In this document: piece by piece, positions 313 to 37,403 of the stretch
Numbering within the stretch: position 1 is the stretch's first letter
Layout: every line of letters begins with the position of its first letter
NCBI GenBank assembly: GCA_025454875.1
Contig: JALONP010000001.1
Coordinates: 1-64,000, forward strand
Direction of reading: 5' to 3'
Source: Bacteroidia bacterium
Lineage (GTDB): Bacteria > Bacteroidota > Bacteroidia > UKL13-3
DNA length: 64,000 bases
Translations under genes and position numbers: made by a program
Notes under the pieces: model-generated
What the model was told of the DNA's origin: nothing
The model's input: the letters and a program-made list of their open reading frames with translations, nothing else
The model's database searches: none

Positions 313-583
313 ATTTTTTATTTATCGTTTTCGCAAAAAGCGAATTTCTTTATTTTGTTTCTAGCCGCAGATTACGCAGATTTAGTTACGTAGTCGTTGG
401 TTTTATTGCCACTGATTAACACAGAATTTATTGTGTTGTTATGTGGTATAATTTTTTCTTTTTTAGCCGCTCCCGATAGCTATCTGGATACGCAAATTTT
501 ATTTTTTAATCAGCGCAATTAGCGGCTTTTTCTTTATTATTTCCTCTGATTTAACATTTTTCTGTGCTCATCCGTGGCGGTAA
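313..583. repeat. Repeat-filled nuoG-nuoF spacer with inverted AGCCGC-type copies
   Basis: No gene is seen. A 23-nt unit beginning TAGCCGCAGATTACGCAG lies at 362-384, and a related inverted copy (reverse complement AGCCGCTAATTGCGCTG...) at 507-527. A second inverted pair is GCCACTGATTAACACAGA (404-421) against the reverse complement of about 563-580 (15 of 18 match). The spacer could therefore fold into a long imperfect stem in the nuo transcript. Related units lie at 1991-2013, 2447-2467 and 3039-3061. Confidence 0.7.
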
Positions 584-1945
584 TTATAAGCTACTATATG
601 CCGCTGCCGGATCCATATTGTTGGTATGGAAATAGTATTTTACGTCTTTTATTTTTTCTCCATGTTTAACATACTCTTCAAACTCAGCTCTAAAATGGCG
701 AATGGCACTAGCCACAGGCCAAGCAGCTGCATCGCCTAATGGGCAAATGGTATTGCCTTCAATTTTACGTTGCAACTCCCAAAGTAAATCAATGTCTTCG
801 AGTGAGCCATGTCCATCTACAATTTTGTGTAATATTTTTTCCATCCATCCTGTTCCCTCGCGGCATGGGCTGCACTGTCCGCAGCTTTCGTGGTGGTAAA
901 AACGGGTGAAGTTCCATAGATTTTTAGGAATGCTTACTGTTTCATCCATCACAATGAAACCACCGGATCCCAACATGGTACCAGTTGCAAATCCACCATC
1001 TGCTAAGCTCTCGTAGGTCATTAAACGAGGCTCACCTGCCGCTGTTTTTAAGATTAAGTCGGTTGGTAAAATAGGAACTGAAGAACCTCCGGCAACAACT
1101 GCTTTTAGTTTTTTGTCATTTAAGATACCGCCACAATATTCATCGCTGTAGATAAACTCTTCAACTGGAACACCCAATTCAATTTCATAAATACCCGGTT
1201 TTTTGATATGCCCTGAAGCTGAAATTAACTTTGTTCCGGTTGATTTACCAATACCAATTGCAGCGTAAGCATCGCCACCTTGGTTCACAATCGGAACCAC
1301 TGCGGCAATGGTTTCAACATTATTCACCACTGTTGGGCAACCATACAAACCTGCAATGGCTGGAAATGGCGGTTTAATGCGAGGGTTGCCACGTTTACCT
1401 TCGAGTGATTCTAACAAAGCAGTTTCTTCACCGCAGATGTAAGCTCCACCACCAGGTTGAACATACAAATCTAAGTCGTAACCAGAACCTTGTATGTTTT
1501 TACCTAACCAACCTGCAGCATATGCTTCAGCAATTGCTTTTTCTAAAATAGCAATAACGTAGTAATATTCACCACGTACATAAATATATGAAGTATTCGC
1601 ACCCAACGCATAACTCGAAGTAATCATTCCTTCAATAAGTAAATGCGGCAAGCGCGACATCAAGTAGCGATCTTTAAATGTTCCGGGTTCACTTTCATCT
1701 GCATTGCAAACCAAATAACGAGGAACACCTTCAGGTTTGGCCAAAAAACTCCATTTCATTCCAGTAGGAAAACCAGCACCACCACGACCACGAAGTCCAG
1801 ATTTTTTTACTTCTTCAACCACTTCTTCGGGTTTCATGGTTTTTACGGCTTTTTCAACCGAAGCATAACCACCCATTTTGCGGTATACTTCATAACCTTG
1901 AATTCCTGGTACGTTAATATGTTCTGTTAAAAGTTTTCTTCCCAT
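584..1945 (-). CDS. nuoF: NADH-quinone oxidoreductase subunit F (NADH-binding)
   Basis: This 453-residue protein has normal family length. It carries the FMN/NADH-binding glycine-rich segment GRGGAGFPTG (residues 53-62), the NADESEPGTFKDR segment, and the C-terminal 4Fe-4S (N3) ligands in SCGQCSPCREGTGW with the distal Cys in NTICPLGD. It oxidises NADH and passes electrons via FMN to the Fe-S chain of complex I on the cytoplasmic side. It starts at an ATG and follows, on the minus strand, a GxxExxY gene that separates it from nuoE. Confidence 0.97.
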   Translation of the reverse strand: MGRKLLTEHINVPGIQGYEVYRKMGGYASVEKAVKTMKPEEVVEEVKKSGLRGRGGAGFPTGMKWSFLAKPEGVPRYLVCNADESEPGTFKDRYLMSRLPHLLIEGMITSSYALGANTSYIYVRGEYYYVIAILEKAIAEAYAAGWLGKNIQGSGYDLDLYVQPGGGAYICGEETALLESLEGKRGNPRIKPPFPAIAGLYGCPTVVNNVETIAAVVPIVNQGGDAYAAIGIGKSTGTKLISASGHIKKPGIYEIELGVPVEEFIYSDEYCGGILNDKKLKAVVAGGSSVPILPTDLILKTAAGEPRLMTYESLADGGFATGTMLGSGGFIVMDETVSIPKNLWNFTRFYHHESCGQCSPCREGTGWMEKILHKIVDGHGSLEDIDLLWELQRKIEGNTICPLGDAAAWPVASAIRHFRAEFEEYVKHGEKIKDVKYYFHTNNMDPAAAYSSL

Positions 1946-1990: not shown

Positions 1991-2013
1991 TAGCCGCTAA
2001 TTACGTTAATTTA
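1991..2013 (+). repeat. AGCCGC-type repeat unit, left flank of GxxExxY gene
   Basis: The unit TAGCCGCTAATTACGTTAAT (continuing TTA) matches the 362-384 unit at 18 of 23 positions. Its 11-bp core AGCCGCTAATT (1992-2002) is perfectly inverted at 2457-2467, so the pair brackets the GxxExxY gene and could close a stem in the nuo transcript. Confidence 0.7.
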
Positions 2014-2436
2014 TTTATTGTTTATCCCTATGCTTTTGTTCAATACTACTCGTCTGTAAGTCAAAGAATCTTCACCAAAATTTACTAAAATGCCTAATTG
2101 ATAACCACTGATAGCAAGGTAATTAATTACCTGTTTGTAATGATTTTCAATTGCACCCTCTTGAGCTTTTACCTCAAGTATTATTTTATTATCAATTGTG
2201 AAATCAGATACATAATAATGTGTTAGCAACTCATCTTTATAATGAATTTCAAATCTTTTTTCTCTTTCAAATTGAATCCCTTTTAGCTTAAACTCATGTT
2301 GAAGTGCATCTTTGTAAACAGCTTCTAAAAATCCCTTGCCTAAATATGAATGAACCTCCATACAAGCTCCTATAATTGAGTAAGCTTCTTCAGAAAAAGG
2401 ATAGTCAACACTATTTTTTAGATTTAACTGAGGCAT
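2011..2436 (-). CDS. GxxExxY family protein
   Basis: This 141-residue protein contains the family signature in GKGFLEAVYKDAL (G..E..Y, about residues 33-45), followed by a PDDEXK-like core with ISDF-type Asp and ILEVKA (DFTIDNKIILEVKA). The family was first noticed in intervening sequences and intergenic spots of Bacteroidota, Planctomycetes and others; its biochemical role is unknown, although the fold suggests a nuclease ancestry. It lies in the same orientation between nuoE and nuoF, where these two genes are normally adjacent, and is flanked by inverted repeats (1991-2013 and 2447-2467). I infer it is a later insertion. Confidence 0.85.
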   Translation of the reverse strand: MPQLNLKNSVDYPFSEEAYSIIGACMEVHSYLGKGFLEAVYKDALQHEFKLKGIQFEREKRFEIHYKDELLTHYYVSDFTIDNKIILEVKAQEGAIENHYKQVINYLAISGYQLGILVNFGEDSLTYRRVVLNKSIGINNK

Positions 2437-2446
2437 TTAATTTAAG

Positions 2447-2467
2447 TAATTGGCGAAATTAGCGGCT
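2447..2467 (-). repeat. AGCCGC-type repeat unit, right flank of GxxExxY gene (inverted)
   Basis: The reverse complement begins AGCCGCTAATTTCGCCAAT. It matches the inverted unit at 507-527 at about 18 of 21 positions, and the first 11 bases are the exact inverse of 1992-2002. It sits just upstream, in operon direction, of the GxxExxY start. Confidence 0.7.
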
Positions 2468-2478
2468 TTATATTTTTA

Positions 2479-3018
2479 TCAATAACTTTCTATTACTACA
2501 TCATCAAAGTAGGTTTTGCGTTTGTTTTCCCTTCTCAAATTGTCCAACAGTGCATCTACTTTTTCAAGCGTGAGGTTTTCATGAAATTGAGCCCCACACA
2601 TCAACATTGGTGCCGTTCCACAAGAGCCCAAACACTCGACTGTTTTCAAAGTGAACATTCCATCTGTGGTTGTTTCGCCTTCTTTAATTCCCAATCGTTT
2701 TTCAATATGTTTTACCACATCTTCGGCTCCGCGTAACCAACAACTGCTGGTTCTGCAAACCTCCAATAAGCATTTGCCCACTGGCTTTAAATTGTACATG
2801 CTGTAAAACGATGCAACTTCATATACTTCTATTGGTTGCAGGTTTAAGATACTTGCTACGTAATCCATAACCTCTGGACTTAACCAACCATCAAACTCTG
2901 CTTGTGCAATATGCAATACAGGTAGCAGTGCCGATTTTTGTTTTCCGGCAGGGTAACGGGCTATAATTTGTTGAACCGTAGCCATCGTTTCTGCATTAAA
3001 TTTTATTTCAGTAGTCAT
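2479..3018 (-). CDS. nuoE: NADH-quinone oxidoreductase subunit E
   Basis: The 179-residue thioredoxin-like 2Fe-2S protein has the N1a cluster ligands Cys88, Cys93 (CRTSSC), Cys129 and Cys133 (CLGSC). The N-terminal half is the helical region with FYSMYNLKPVGK typical of NuoE. It pairs with NuoF to form the NADH-oxidising tip of complex I. It is separated from nuoD by 112 bp that hold a repeat unit, and from nuoF by the inserted GxxExxY gene. The ATG start gives the usual family length. Confidence 0.97.
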   Translation of the reverse strand: MTTEIKFNAETMATVQQIIARYPAGKQKSALLPVLHIAQAEFDGWLSPEVMDYVASILNLQPIEVYEVASFYSMYNLKPVGKCLLEVCRTSSCWLRGAEDVVKHIEKRLGIKEGETTTDGMFTLKTVECLGSCGTAPMLMCGAQFHENLTLEKVDALLDNLRRENKRKTYFDDVVIESY

Positions 3019-3038: not shown

Positions 3039-3061
3039 TAGCTGCAGATTTCGCAGATTTA
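3039..3061 (+). repeat. AGCCGC-type repeat unit in nuoE-nuoD spacer
   Basis: TAGCTGCAGATTTCGCAGAT (continuing TTA) differs from the 362-384 unit at only 2 of 23 positions. It is a solo unit without a visible inverted partner in the 112-bp spacer. Confidence 0.65.
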
Positions 3062-27114: not shown

Positions 27115-27194
27115 GGGCTTCAGCGATGTTCGTTTCACTCACTCGCTGCGCGTGTTTCGCGGTACACGGTACCTTGCTGCACCCGCTAAGCCAA
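27115..27194 (+). repeat. 80-bp multi-hairpin intergenic repeat, copy 1
   Basis: It starts GGGCTTCAGCGATG and ends CGCTAAGCCAA. It matches 33032-33111 at 76 of 80 positions. Internal inverted repeats are GGTAC-ACG-GTACC (27161-27173), CGCG-TGTTT-CGCG, and outer arms GGCTT(C)AGCG (27116-27125) with CGCTAAGCC (27184-27192). The surrounding gap (27017-27370) holds no gene. Confidence 0.85.
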
Positions 27195-27370
27195 AATTAA
27201 AATGATGAATTACTAATTGGGGAGTTTGAGTATTGAATGAAGGCATTAGTTTTAGTGTTAAGTTTTGAGTGTTAAGGTTTAAGTGTGAATGTTTAATGCC
27301 TACTGCCCAAAGCCCAATAAAATGTATATTGCAAAACGAACTCAATCAGGTATTCTCATACTACTCAAGA

Positions 27371-32967: not shown

Positions 32968-33338
32968 CTCATTAAAAAATAGATACACAAGATAACCCAC
33001 TTCTACACCTTCTGTTTTAGTTAAAAGGAAGGGGCTTCAGCGAGGTTCGTTTCACTCACTCGCTGCGCGTGTTCCGCGTTACACGGTAACTTGCTGCACC
33101 CGCTAAGCCAAGATAAGAATAAGAAATTGAGGATTGCGAAGACGAATGTTTGAAGCGAATCATAGGTTAATTATGATGGCTTATAAATATGTAAGTTCAA
33201 ACTTTAGGTTTCGACATACGTTTGCAAGCCCCATAAACAATAGTTAAGCGAAGTTACCATCCACTTAGCTTCATATACTCTACAGTAATTAACTAAAAGA
33301 CGCAGCCACCTCGCACTCAAATTCAGCATATTCATCTG
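32968..33338. other. Gene-free gap holding the second 80-bp repeat
   Basis: Apart from the repeat at 33032-33111 I see no coding frame, tRNA or clear promoter. A repeat unit sits 65 bp past the recG stop. Confidence 0.6.
33032..33111 (+). repeat. 80-bp multi-hairpin intergenic repeat, copy 2
   Basis: It matches 27115-27194 with four substitutions. Two of these are paired: the inner stem GGTAC...GTACC of copy 1 is GTTAC...GTAAC here (33078-33090), which keeps the base pair. The other two fall in loops or a stem edge. Orientation is the same in both copies. Confidence 0.85.
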
Positions 33339-33959: not shown

Positions 33960-34577
33960 ATGTTGTAAAATTAAAACAAAAATCCATTCTCTGTCTCTCT
34001 CTTTTTTGTTAAGTCGCCTTCTCCAAGCATTTCTCTTATATCTATTTCTATTGCGTATCACATAGCTGTAAGTGGAACATCAGTATTTCTGTTTTCAAAT
34101 GGGTTTATGTTTACTTCGCCAAATATTACGACAATAGCTTATGTAAATGATATTATAACCTACATAAATATGGTCAAATAGTACTTATTTATTGAGGATA
34201 GTTCCTATGAATAATAATAAGTAATAACATGGACCCAAAATCAGCAATTTTTTGCCAGCATTAAAACATGTGTTTAATAACATATAATCTGATCCGAACA
34301 TTCATATTGAATGGAAACATGCAGTAGAAAATTGTGTTCACCTATTGATTGTGAGTAAATAGATTATTGTACAATTTAAGGCTGGCTAATAAAAGAGTAT
34401 ACGGTTAAATCATATCCCGCTGCGGCAAAACATTGCCGCAGCGGGGATTCATTTGGTGGCGTCTTTTTTCTATCTTGGCTATCTGATTGGTTATTTGTTT
34501 TAATAGTACGCCAAGTACTCTTAGCAAATAATTTTATTCTTATGTTAGTTTAGAACGTACAATTTAATATCTAAAAA
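33960..34577. other. 618-bp gene-free gap
   Basis: No frame with coding character is seen. It contains the GC-rich palindrome at 34416-34445 and a small inverted repeat AGTAC-GCCAA-GTACT at about 34505-34520. The rest is AT-rich with no recognisable RNA gene. Confidence 0.5.
34416..34445. repeat. GC-rich perfect palindrome, copy 1
   Basis: CCCGCTGCGGCAA, loop AACA, TTGCCGCAGCGGG gives 13-bp arms. The identical 30-bp sequence lies at 37374-37403, and the sequence to its left (ACGGTTnAnTCAnAT) is also shared. There is no T-run, so a simple terminator is less likely than a repeat element. Confidence 0.85.
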
Positions 34578-37373: not shown

Positions 37374-37403
37374 CCCGCTGCGGCAAAACATTGCCGCAGC
37401 GGG
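37374..37403. repeat. GC-rich perfect palindrome, copy 2
   Basis: It is identical over 30 bp to 34416-34445 and lies 16 bp after the stop of the T9SS gene. The two copies enclose the DUF3830, cysteine-rich and T9SS genes. Confidence 0.85.

Follow-up and report, generated by a model that had tools for sequence, protein, structure and literature searches.

What is a GxxExxY gene doing between nuoE and nuoF, and what are the inverted repeats that stand on either side of it? These questions are raised by a stretch of 64,000 nucleotides from a Bacteroidia bacterium (contig JALONP010000001.1, positions 1 to 64,000), referred to below as the window. A sequence-only reading of this DNA had proposed that the gene was inserted into the nuo operon, that it belongs with its repeats to a small cassette family that invades the spacers of operons, sometimes with and sometimes without a coding gene, and that the repeats may fold in mRNA. 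To our knowledge, GxxExxY proteins have no known function.

The gene and its repeat arms

On re-reading the sequence, the positions and orientations that had been given for the gene and the repeats were borne out, as was the statement that nuoE and nuoF are split by a co-directional GxxExxY gene, all three genes lying on the minus strand, with inverted arrays of 8–11-nt units on either side of the inserted gene (Table 1). The 141-aa product matched TIGR04256 (E = 6.6e-39, 132.9 bits against a cut-off of 35) and PF13366 (E = 2.8e-36, 124.8 bits against a cut-off of 22) along the full domain, which places it in the GxxExxY family. The sequence AGCCGCTAATT at 1992–2002 recurs as an exact reverse complement at 2457–2467. 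The repeat had been described as a 23-nt unit; the repeats are real and their positions were right, but they are not copies of one fixed 23-mer and are better described as tandem C[AG]CNNA(T/G) units, two or more of them spaced 8–11 nt. A further pair was overlooked in the earlier description, namely 408–430 with 561–580, nested around 465–500 with 508–527.

Table 1. Features of the nuoD–nuoG part of the window.
Feature	Coordinates	Strand	Evidence
Gene-less arm, nuoF-nuoG spacer, TAGCCGCAGATTACGCAGATTTA	362..384	+	Exact pattern match; array
Outer gene-less arm, GCCACTGATTAACACAGAATTTA	408..430	+	Predicted-fold partner of 561-580
Inner gene-less arm, AGCCGC...ACGCAAATTTT, broken by palindrome-like CCCGATAGCTATC stretch	465..500	+	Sequence; predicted-fold partner of 508-527
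Inner gene-less arm, AGCCGCTAATTGCGCTGATT on minus strand; AATCAGCGCAATTAGCGGCT at 508-527	508..527	-	Pattern match with 3 mismatches; array
Outer gene-less arm, CCGCCACGGATGAGCACAGA on minus strand	561..580	-	Sequence; fold
nuoF, downstream host gene	584..1945	-	TIGR01959
Arm at gene 3' end, TAGCCGCTAATTACGTTAATTTA, overlaps last codons	1991..2013	+	Inverted copy of 2440-2467; matched in orthologues
GxxExxY gene, predicted PD-(D/E)XK nuclease, 141 aa	2011..2436	-	TIGR04256, PF13366, motifs in 58 relatives, AF2 pLDDT 90
Arm at gene 5' end, AGCCGCTAATTTCGCCAATTACTTAAAT on minus strand	2440..2467	-	Two-unit array 2449-2464; core AGCCGCTAATT 2457-2467
nuoE, upstream host gene	2479..3018	-	TIGR01958
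Solo arm, nuoD-nuoE spacer, TAGCTGCAGATTTCGCAGATTTA	3039..3061	+	Pattern match with 1 mismatch

The abundance of the repeat is far above chance. With up to three mismatches, AGCCGCAGATTNCGCAGATT was matched 32 times in the 2.98-Mb genome and never in the reversed control, and arrays of at least two units numbered 37, against 6 in reversed sequence, in the 792 kb of the source genome that were scanned. These arrays were mostly intergenic (25/37), though 91% of the 792 kb is coding. Other repeated or symmetrical sequences were also seen. A palindrome-like CCCGATAGCTATC(T)GG lies inside a gene-less arm at 470–489, with related stretches near other arms of the source genome; two identical 30-nt hairpins, CCCGCTGCGGCAAAACATTGCCGCAGCGGG, occur at 34416–34445 and 37374–37403 of the window, and a 110-nt direct repeat occurs in copies 85% identical and 5.9 kb apart (27115–27224 and 33032–33141).

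Insertion into the nuo operon

Relatives were sampled at one genome per species, and the nuoE–nuoF junction was measurable in 46 of them. It lacked the gene in 42, with a stop-to-start distance mostly of 2–9 bp and at most 122 bp, and held a GxxExxY gene with inverted arms in the other four, of which G000 and G001 belong to the same genus, and G013 and G030 to another genus of the family. The junction is empty in G022, a congener of G013 and G030; in a fifth genome, G020, nuoE is followed by a GxxExxY gene that reaches the contig end. Close relatives therefore do not all carry the gene at this site, let alone without repeats, and the comparison of nuo operons demonstrates that gene and arms were inserted as a unit into a formerly empty junction, as had been proposed. 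At the empty sites, identity between relatives is only 75–87%, a level at which no target-site duplication is definable. The arms at this junction vary across species and match within each (AGCCGCTAATT/AATTAGCGGCT in G000, CCGCAGATT/AATCTGCGG in G001).

Several further observations concern the nuo operon. In the source genome, where the operon is divided between contigs C26 and C9, arm arrays were seen in at least seven of the operon's spacers, including nuoI-J, J-K, K-L and M-N (L315), and the 9.65-kb contig C9 (G000) has 9 of the 25 intergenic arrays counted in the 792 kb. The nuoH–nuoI spacer holds a ClpP-like gene in both sampled species of the genus (L315:1400-1948 on contig C9 of G000; L318:6851-7384 in G001), and no such gene was found between nuoH and nuoI in G002, G013, G022 or G030. 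In Herpetosiphon llansteffanensis (Chloroflexota), a T-type GxxExxY cassette (arm types are defined below) lies between nuoF and nuoG (L213 1593-3787). The nuo operon as a specific target is suggested by this copy and by the clustering of gene-less pairs within that operon in the source genome, and the independent cases are too few for it to be adopted.

Arms around GxxExxY genes in general

All three GxxExxY genes of the source genome have inverted arms, each with its own arm type. The arrangement was then assessed at 152 GxxExxY loci from Bacteroidota and other phyla, with 325 ORFs of the same loci as controls, by comparing the 200 bp upstream with the reverse-complemented 200 bp from downstream, a score of at least 14 counting as a match. 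Inverted arms were detected at 64.5% of the GxxExxY loci, compared with 2.5% among the control ORFs and 5.2% when pairings were permuted, so that the repeat is paired around these genes rather than scattered at random; about a third of the loci had no arms by this test. Direct matches between the flanks were also raised (29% of GxxExxY loci), in part because whole hairpin pairs sit on either side of the gene. The arm units are phased at 8–11 bp, usually with 2–4 units per arm, and fall into a T-type (AT at the end) and a G-type (AG at the end). Types differ between loci, and the two ends of a locus agreed in type at 65 of 65 scorable loci; the same 4-mer core was dominant at both ends at 45 of 66 loci, against 13.1 expected.

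Arm type follows the protein. On a tree of 110 proteins, built on only 128 columns and labelled T or G by regular expression, the label changed 8 times against 30.0 in shuffled data, with none of 500 shuffles as low; the corresponding values were 6 against 18.7 within Bacteroidota and 4 against 10.7 within other phyla. Across phyla, the arm type was the same in about 80% of near-protein pairs and in about one third of distant pairs. Host background does not explain the arm type, because one genome holds several types. A single Flavobacterium spacer, searched for in 121 genomes, illustrates the relationship: it is empty, with about 20 bp, in G410, G371, G395, G351, G404, G405, G306 and G384, whereas in 16 genomes it is occupied by a G-clade gene with G arms, and in G308 and G304 by a T-clade gene with T arms. 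The T-clade occupant shares 40% identity with its G-clade counterpart and 53% with the window protein; a T-clade gene was placed at this spacer in 14 further genomes by gene coordinates. Among the 16 G-clade orthologues, the two arms of one genome were more alike than arms across genomes (0/5000 permutations), and the result held in a thinned set of nine (p = 0.0002), indicating that arms change in concert. On the most likely reading, arms and protein are inherited together as a unit whose specificities match.

Gene-less pairs and changes of site

The fetched DNA contained 57 gene-less inverted pairs with a median loop of 59 nt. Arms of the same pair matched each other better (17.4) than arms of different pairs did (10.8; permutation maximum 13.5). 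The interiors were not alike, though the arms were; the pairs are not near-identical copies of one sequence. Copying of whole elements, or simple amplification, does not explain the differing interiors. GxxExxY protein occurs patchily among Bacteroidota, with about half of the genomes sampled having it, and array-rich genomes of the phylum are mostly GxxExxY-positive (38/122 vs. 4/125, p about 1e-9). Flavobacterium genomes have up to 179 T arrays each, with almost none in the control, and when genomes of like size are compared, T arrays go together with the T-clade protein (p = 0.0002 by size-stratified permutation, the species being related and kinship uncorrected); G379, G410, G404 and G276 are exceptions, rich in T arrays and without a T-clade protein. 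Empty junctions, armed GxxExxY genes and common gene-less pairs together bear out the earlier idea of a cassette family that enters the spacers of operons, whether or not it brings the gene along.

Outside nuo, the nearest relative found for the window protein belongs to another Bacteroidota genome (L168; 60% identity, in the same supported clade) and sits between two genes that were identified as sufD and sufS by reading the ORFs. The lineage has therefore changed site, from one operon to another. Present mobility looks low, because nearly all pairs of similar copies are orthologous; similarity ends at the gene or the arms only in the comparisons L130/L148 and L148/L162. Carriage by plasmids or phages was rejected, as GxxExxY was found in 8 of 72,556 plasmid records and in no phage record. 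In the Flavobacterium spacer of G315:C1:403871 (L368–L395), the inverted repeat is kept and its sequence class is swapped between species, being T-type, GTTTCAAGTTTCAGG-type, or both with a G-type nested inside.

The protein

In an alignment of 58 proteins, G33, G35, E38, D78 and K90 are invariant and E88, Q102 and Y106 near-invariant, so that the motifs GxxE, D, ExK and QxxxY are kept throughout. We take this motif set to be that of RecB/Cas4/lambda-exonuclease enzymes. The best structural match of the AlphaFold2 model (pLDDT 90) was the Cas4 protein SSO0001 (Foldseek E = 8e-5; Z 10.4, rmsd 4.2 over 106 residues, 20% identity). With both the active-site motifs and the fold in place, we predict that the 141-aa protein is an intact PD-(D/E)XK nuclease of Cas4/RecB-like type, which would presumably be catalytically active. 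A search by sequence found no relative of solved structure, and PHROGs gave only weak endonuclease matches. A defence system was considered and rejected, as PADLOC returned no match. In predicted fold and in the motifs D, ExK and QxxxY, the protein resembles Cas4/RecB/lambda-exonuclease-type nucleases (SSO0001, 4ic1); in contrast to these, GxxExxY proteins are minimal (120–145 aa) with no residues seen for an Fe-S cluster, and their genes are bracketed by inverted arms instead of standing in CRISPR or repair operons.

Discussion

Considering all the above results, we lean slightly towards the view that the locus is a widespread insertion cassette of REPIN/RAYT-like kind, composed of inverted arms and a Cas4/RecB-like nuclease, with the gene-less pairs as its relatives. 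In the proposed model, two inverted arms enclose a small nuclease gene and the whole would work in the manner of REPIN/RAYT: the nuclease would recognise its cognate arms, be they duplex, hairpin or single-stranded, and cut at them, leading to rare movement into intergenic spacers, and repair after cutting would keep both arms matched. The gene-less arm pairs in the same genomes would be non-autonomous or decayed relatives of the cassette, which the enzyme may mobilise in trans.

REPIN/RAYT systems of Pseudomonas and others (PMC3116915) share with the cassette short inverted repeats in intergenic spacers, abundant gene-less pairs, an enzyme gene with these same repeats on both sides, and a repeat number that tracks gene presence. 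However, the REPIN/RAYT enzyme is an HUH (Y1) tyrosine transposase (PMC3116915), whereas the protein described here is a predicted PD-(D/E)XK nuclease whose sole family match is PDDEXK_3/GxxExxY; moreover, the cassette arms are tandem arrays of 8–11-nt units, highly variable but matched within each element, and the interiors of gene-less forms are not shared. Lacking the HUH transposase, and with gene-less units that do not reproduce a single sequence, the cassette falls outside REPIN/RAYT. A small ORF between inverted repeats in a transcribed region is also found in the 23S rRNA intervening sequences with an S23/four-helix-bundle ORF, such as that of Coxiella (PMC4990558); these differ from the cassette, which encodes another protein family (PDDEXK_3), lies between nuoE and nuoF and not in an rRNA gene, and gives no sign of selection for RNA pairing. 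Genes of the four-helix-bundle family TIGR02436 (L034–L039 in G000 and L248–L277 in Bacteroidota) were themselves accompanied by inverted short-period repeats of the types AGTATCAAGAT, TTAGTACTTAGTG and AGCTATTAGCTG, with inverted arms (score of at least 14) at 41.7% of loci against 1.3% in permuted data, and may constitute a parallel cassette family.

Several other explanations were weighed. The arms might be hairpins that serve the host as terminators, as mRNA ends or as pause sites for replication; the nuclease would then be a resident factor for DNA repair that acts on such hairpins or on cruciforms, so that cutting and repair keep the arms matched and the cassette does not move itself. 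Such a host-adapted system would fit the long residence at orthologous sites, the matched arms that change in concert, the one Flavobacterium spacer that retains its inverted repeat despite a swapped sequence class, and a fold found in repair nucleases and in Cas4 alike; but the empty sites in close relatives, the different clades at one site and the one lineage in two operons suggest that gene and arms move together, and the patchy presence in half of the genomes also speaks against it, making this explanation rather unlikely. Bracketing by coincidence, in which a short gene enters a spacer that already holds ordinary intergenic repeats, could draw on the array-rich genomes without matching protein and on the ability of another repeat class, GTTTCAAGTTTCAGG, to occupy the same spacer. 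We regard it as very improbable, given that so few control genes are bracketed (2.5%), that arm type tracks protein clade across phyla too, and that the ends of a locus agree without exception (65/65).

The arms could also act at the RNA level, forming a hairpin in the operon mRNA that is trimmed by RNase III, as in 23S rRNA intervening sequences, the cassette hence being tolerated and its protein binding or processing RNA. The arms do close the predicted mRNA fold (z -3.0 and -3.4), as would any inverted repeat; insertions are mostly co-directional with their neighbours, and the same layout with other units recurs in TIGR02436, a family of the 23S intervening-sequence type. Set against this, G-U and A-C mismatches between arms in the sense strand are equally common (116 vs. 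108), and selection on the transcript should favour G-U, so that the match between arms is apparently maintained in the DNA, and RNA folding, as a selected property, finds no support. An orientation bias was likewise rejected, since GxxExxY insertions showed none beyond that of control genes (Fisher p = 0.33). The near-helical phasing of the units at 8–11 bp, an argument by inference, and the symmetric mismatches point to DNA-level matching, and an RNA-level element is quite improbable.

Returning to the insertion cassette, no description of the family was found in the open-access literature, which was the scope of the search; the unit sequences were not found in open-access papers either, and GxxExxY or PF13366 is named there in three papers, in passing in at least two. 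The family is apparently undescribed so far. A broader proposal, which we offer tentatively and with some doubt, is that the cassettes represent a previously unrecognised class of mobile elements of the chromosome, occurring in about half of the Bacteroidota genomes sampled and in numerous further phyla. A minimal nuclease of Cas4/RecB-like type would recognise the phased 8–11-nt arrays and so move both itself and gene-less arm pairs, and the specificities of protein and arms would co-evolve. Four-helix-bundle proteins, with different repeat units, may make up a second class in parallel.

Linking each GxxExxY protein to its cognate inverted arms makes the function of this family directly testable, in terms of which DNA is bound and cut. 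Protein and arms that change as pairs also offer natural material from which rules of DNA recognition can be read. If the nuclease does drive the movement, a Cas4-related enzyme class would join the known mobilisers, and a large body of unexplained intergenic repeats would be accounted for.
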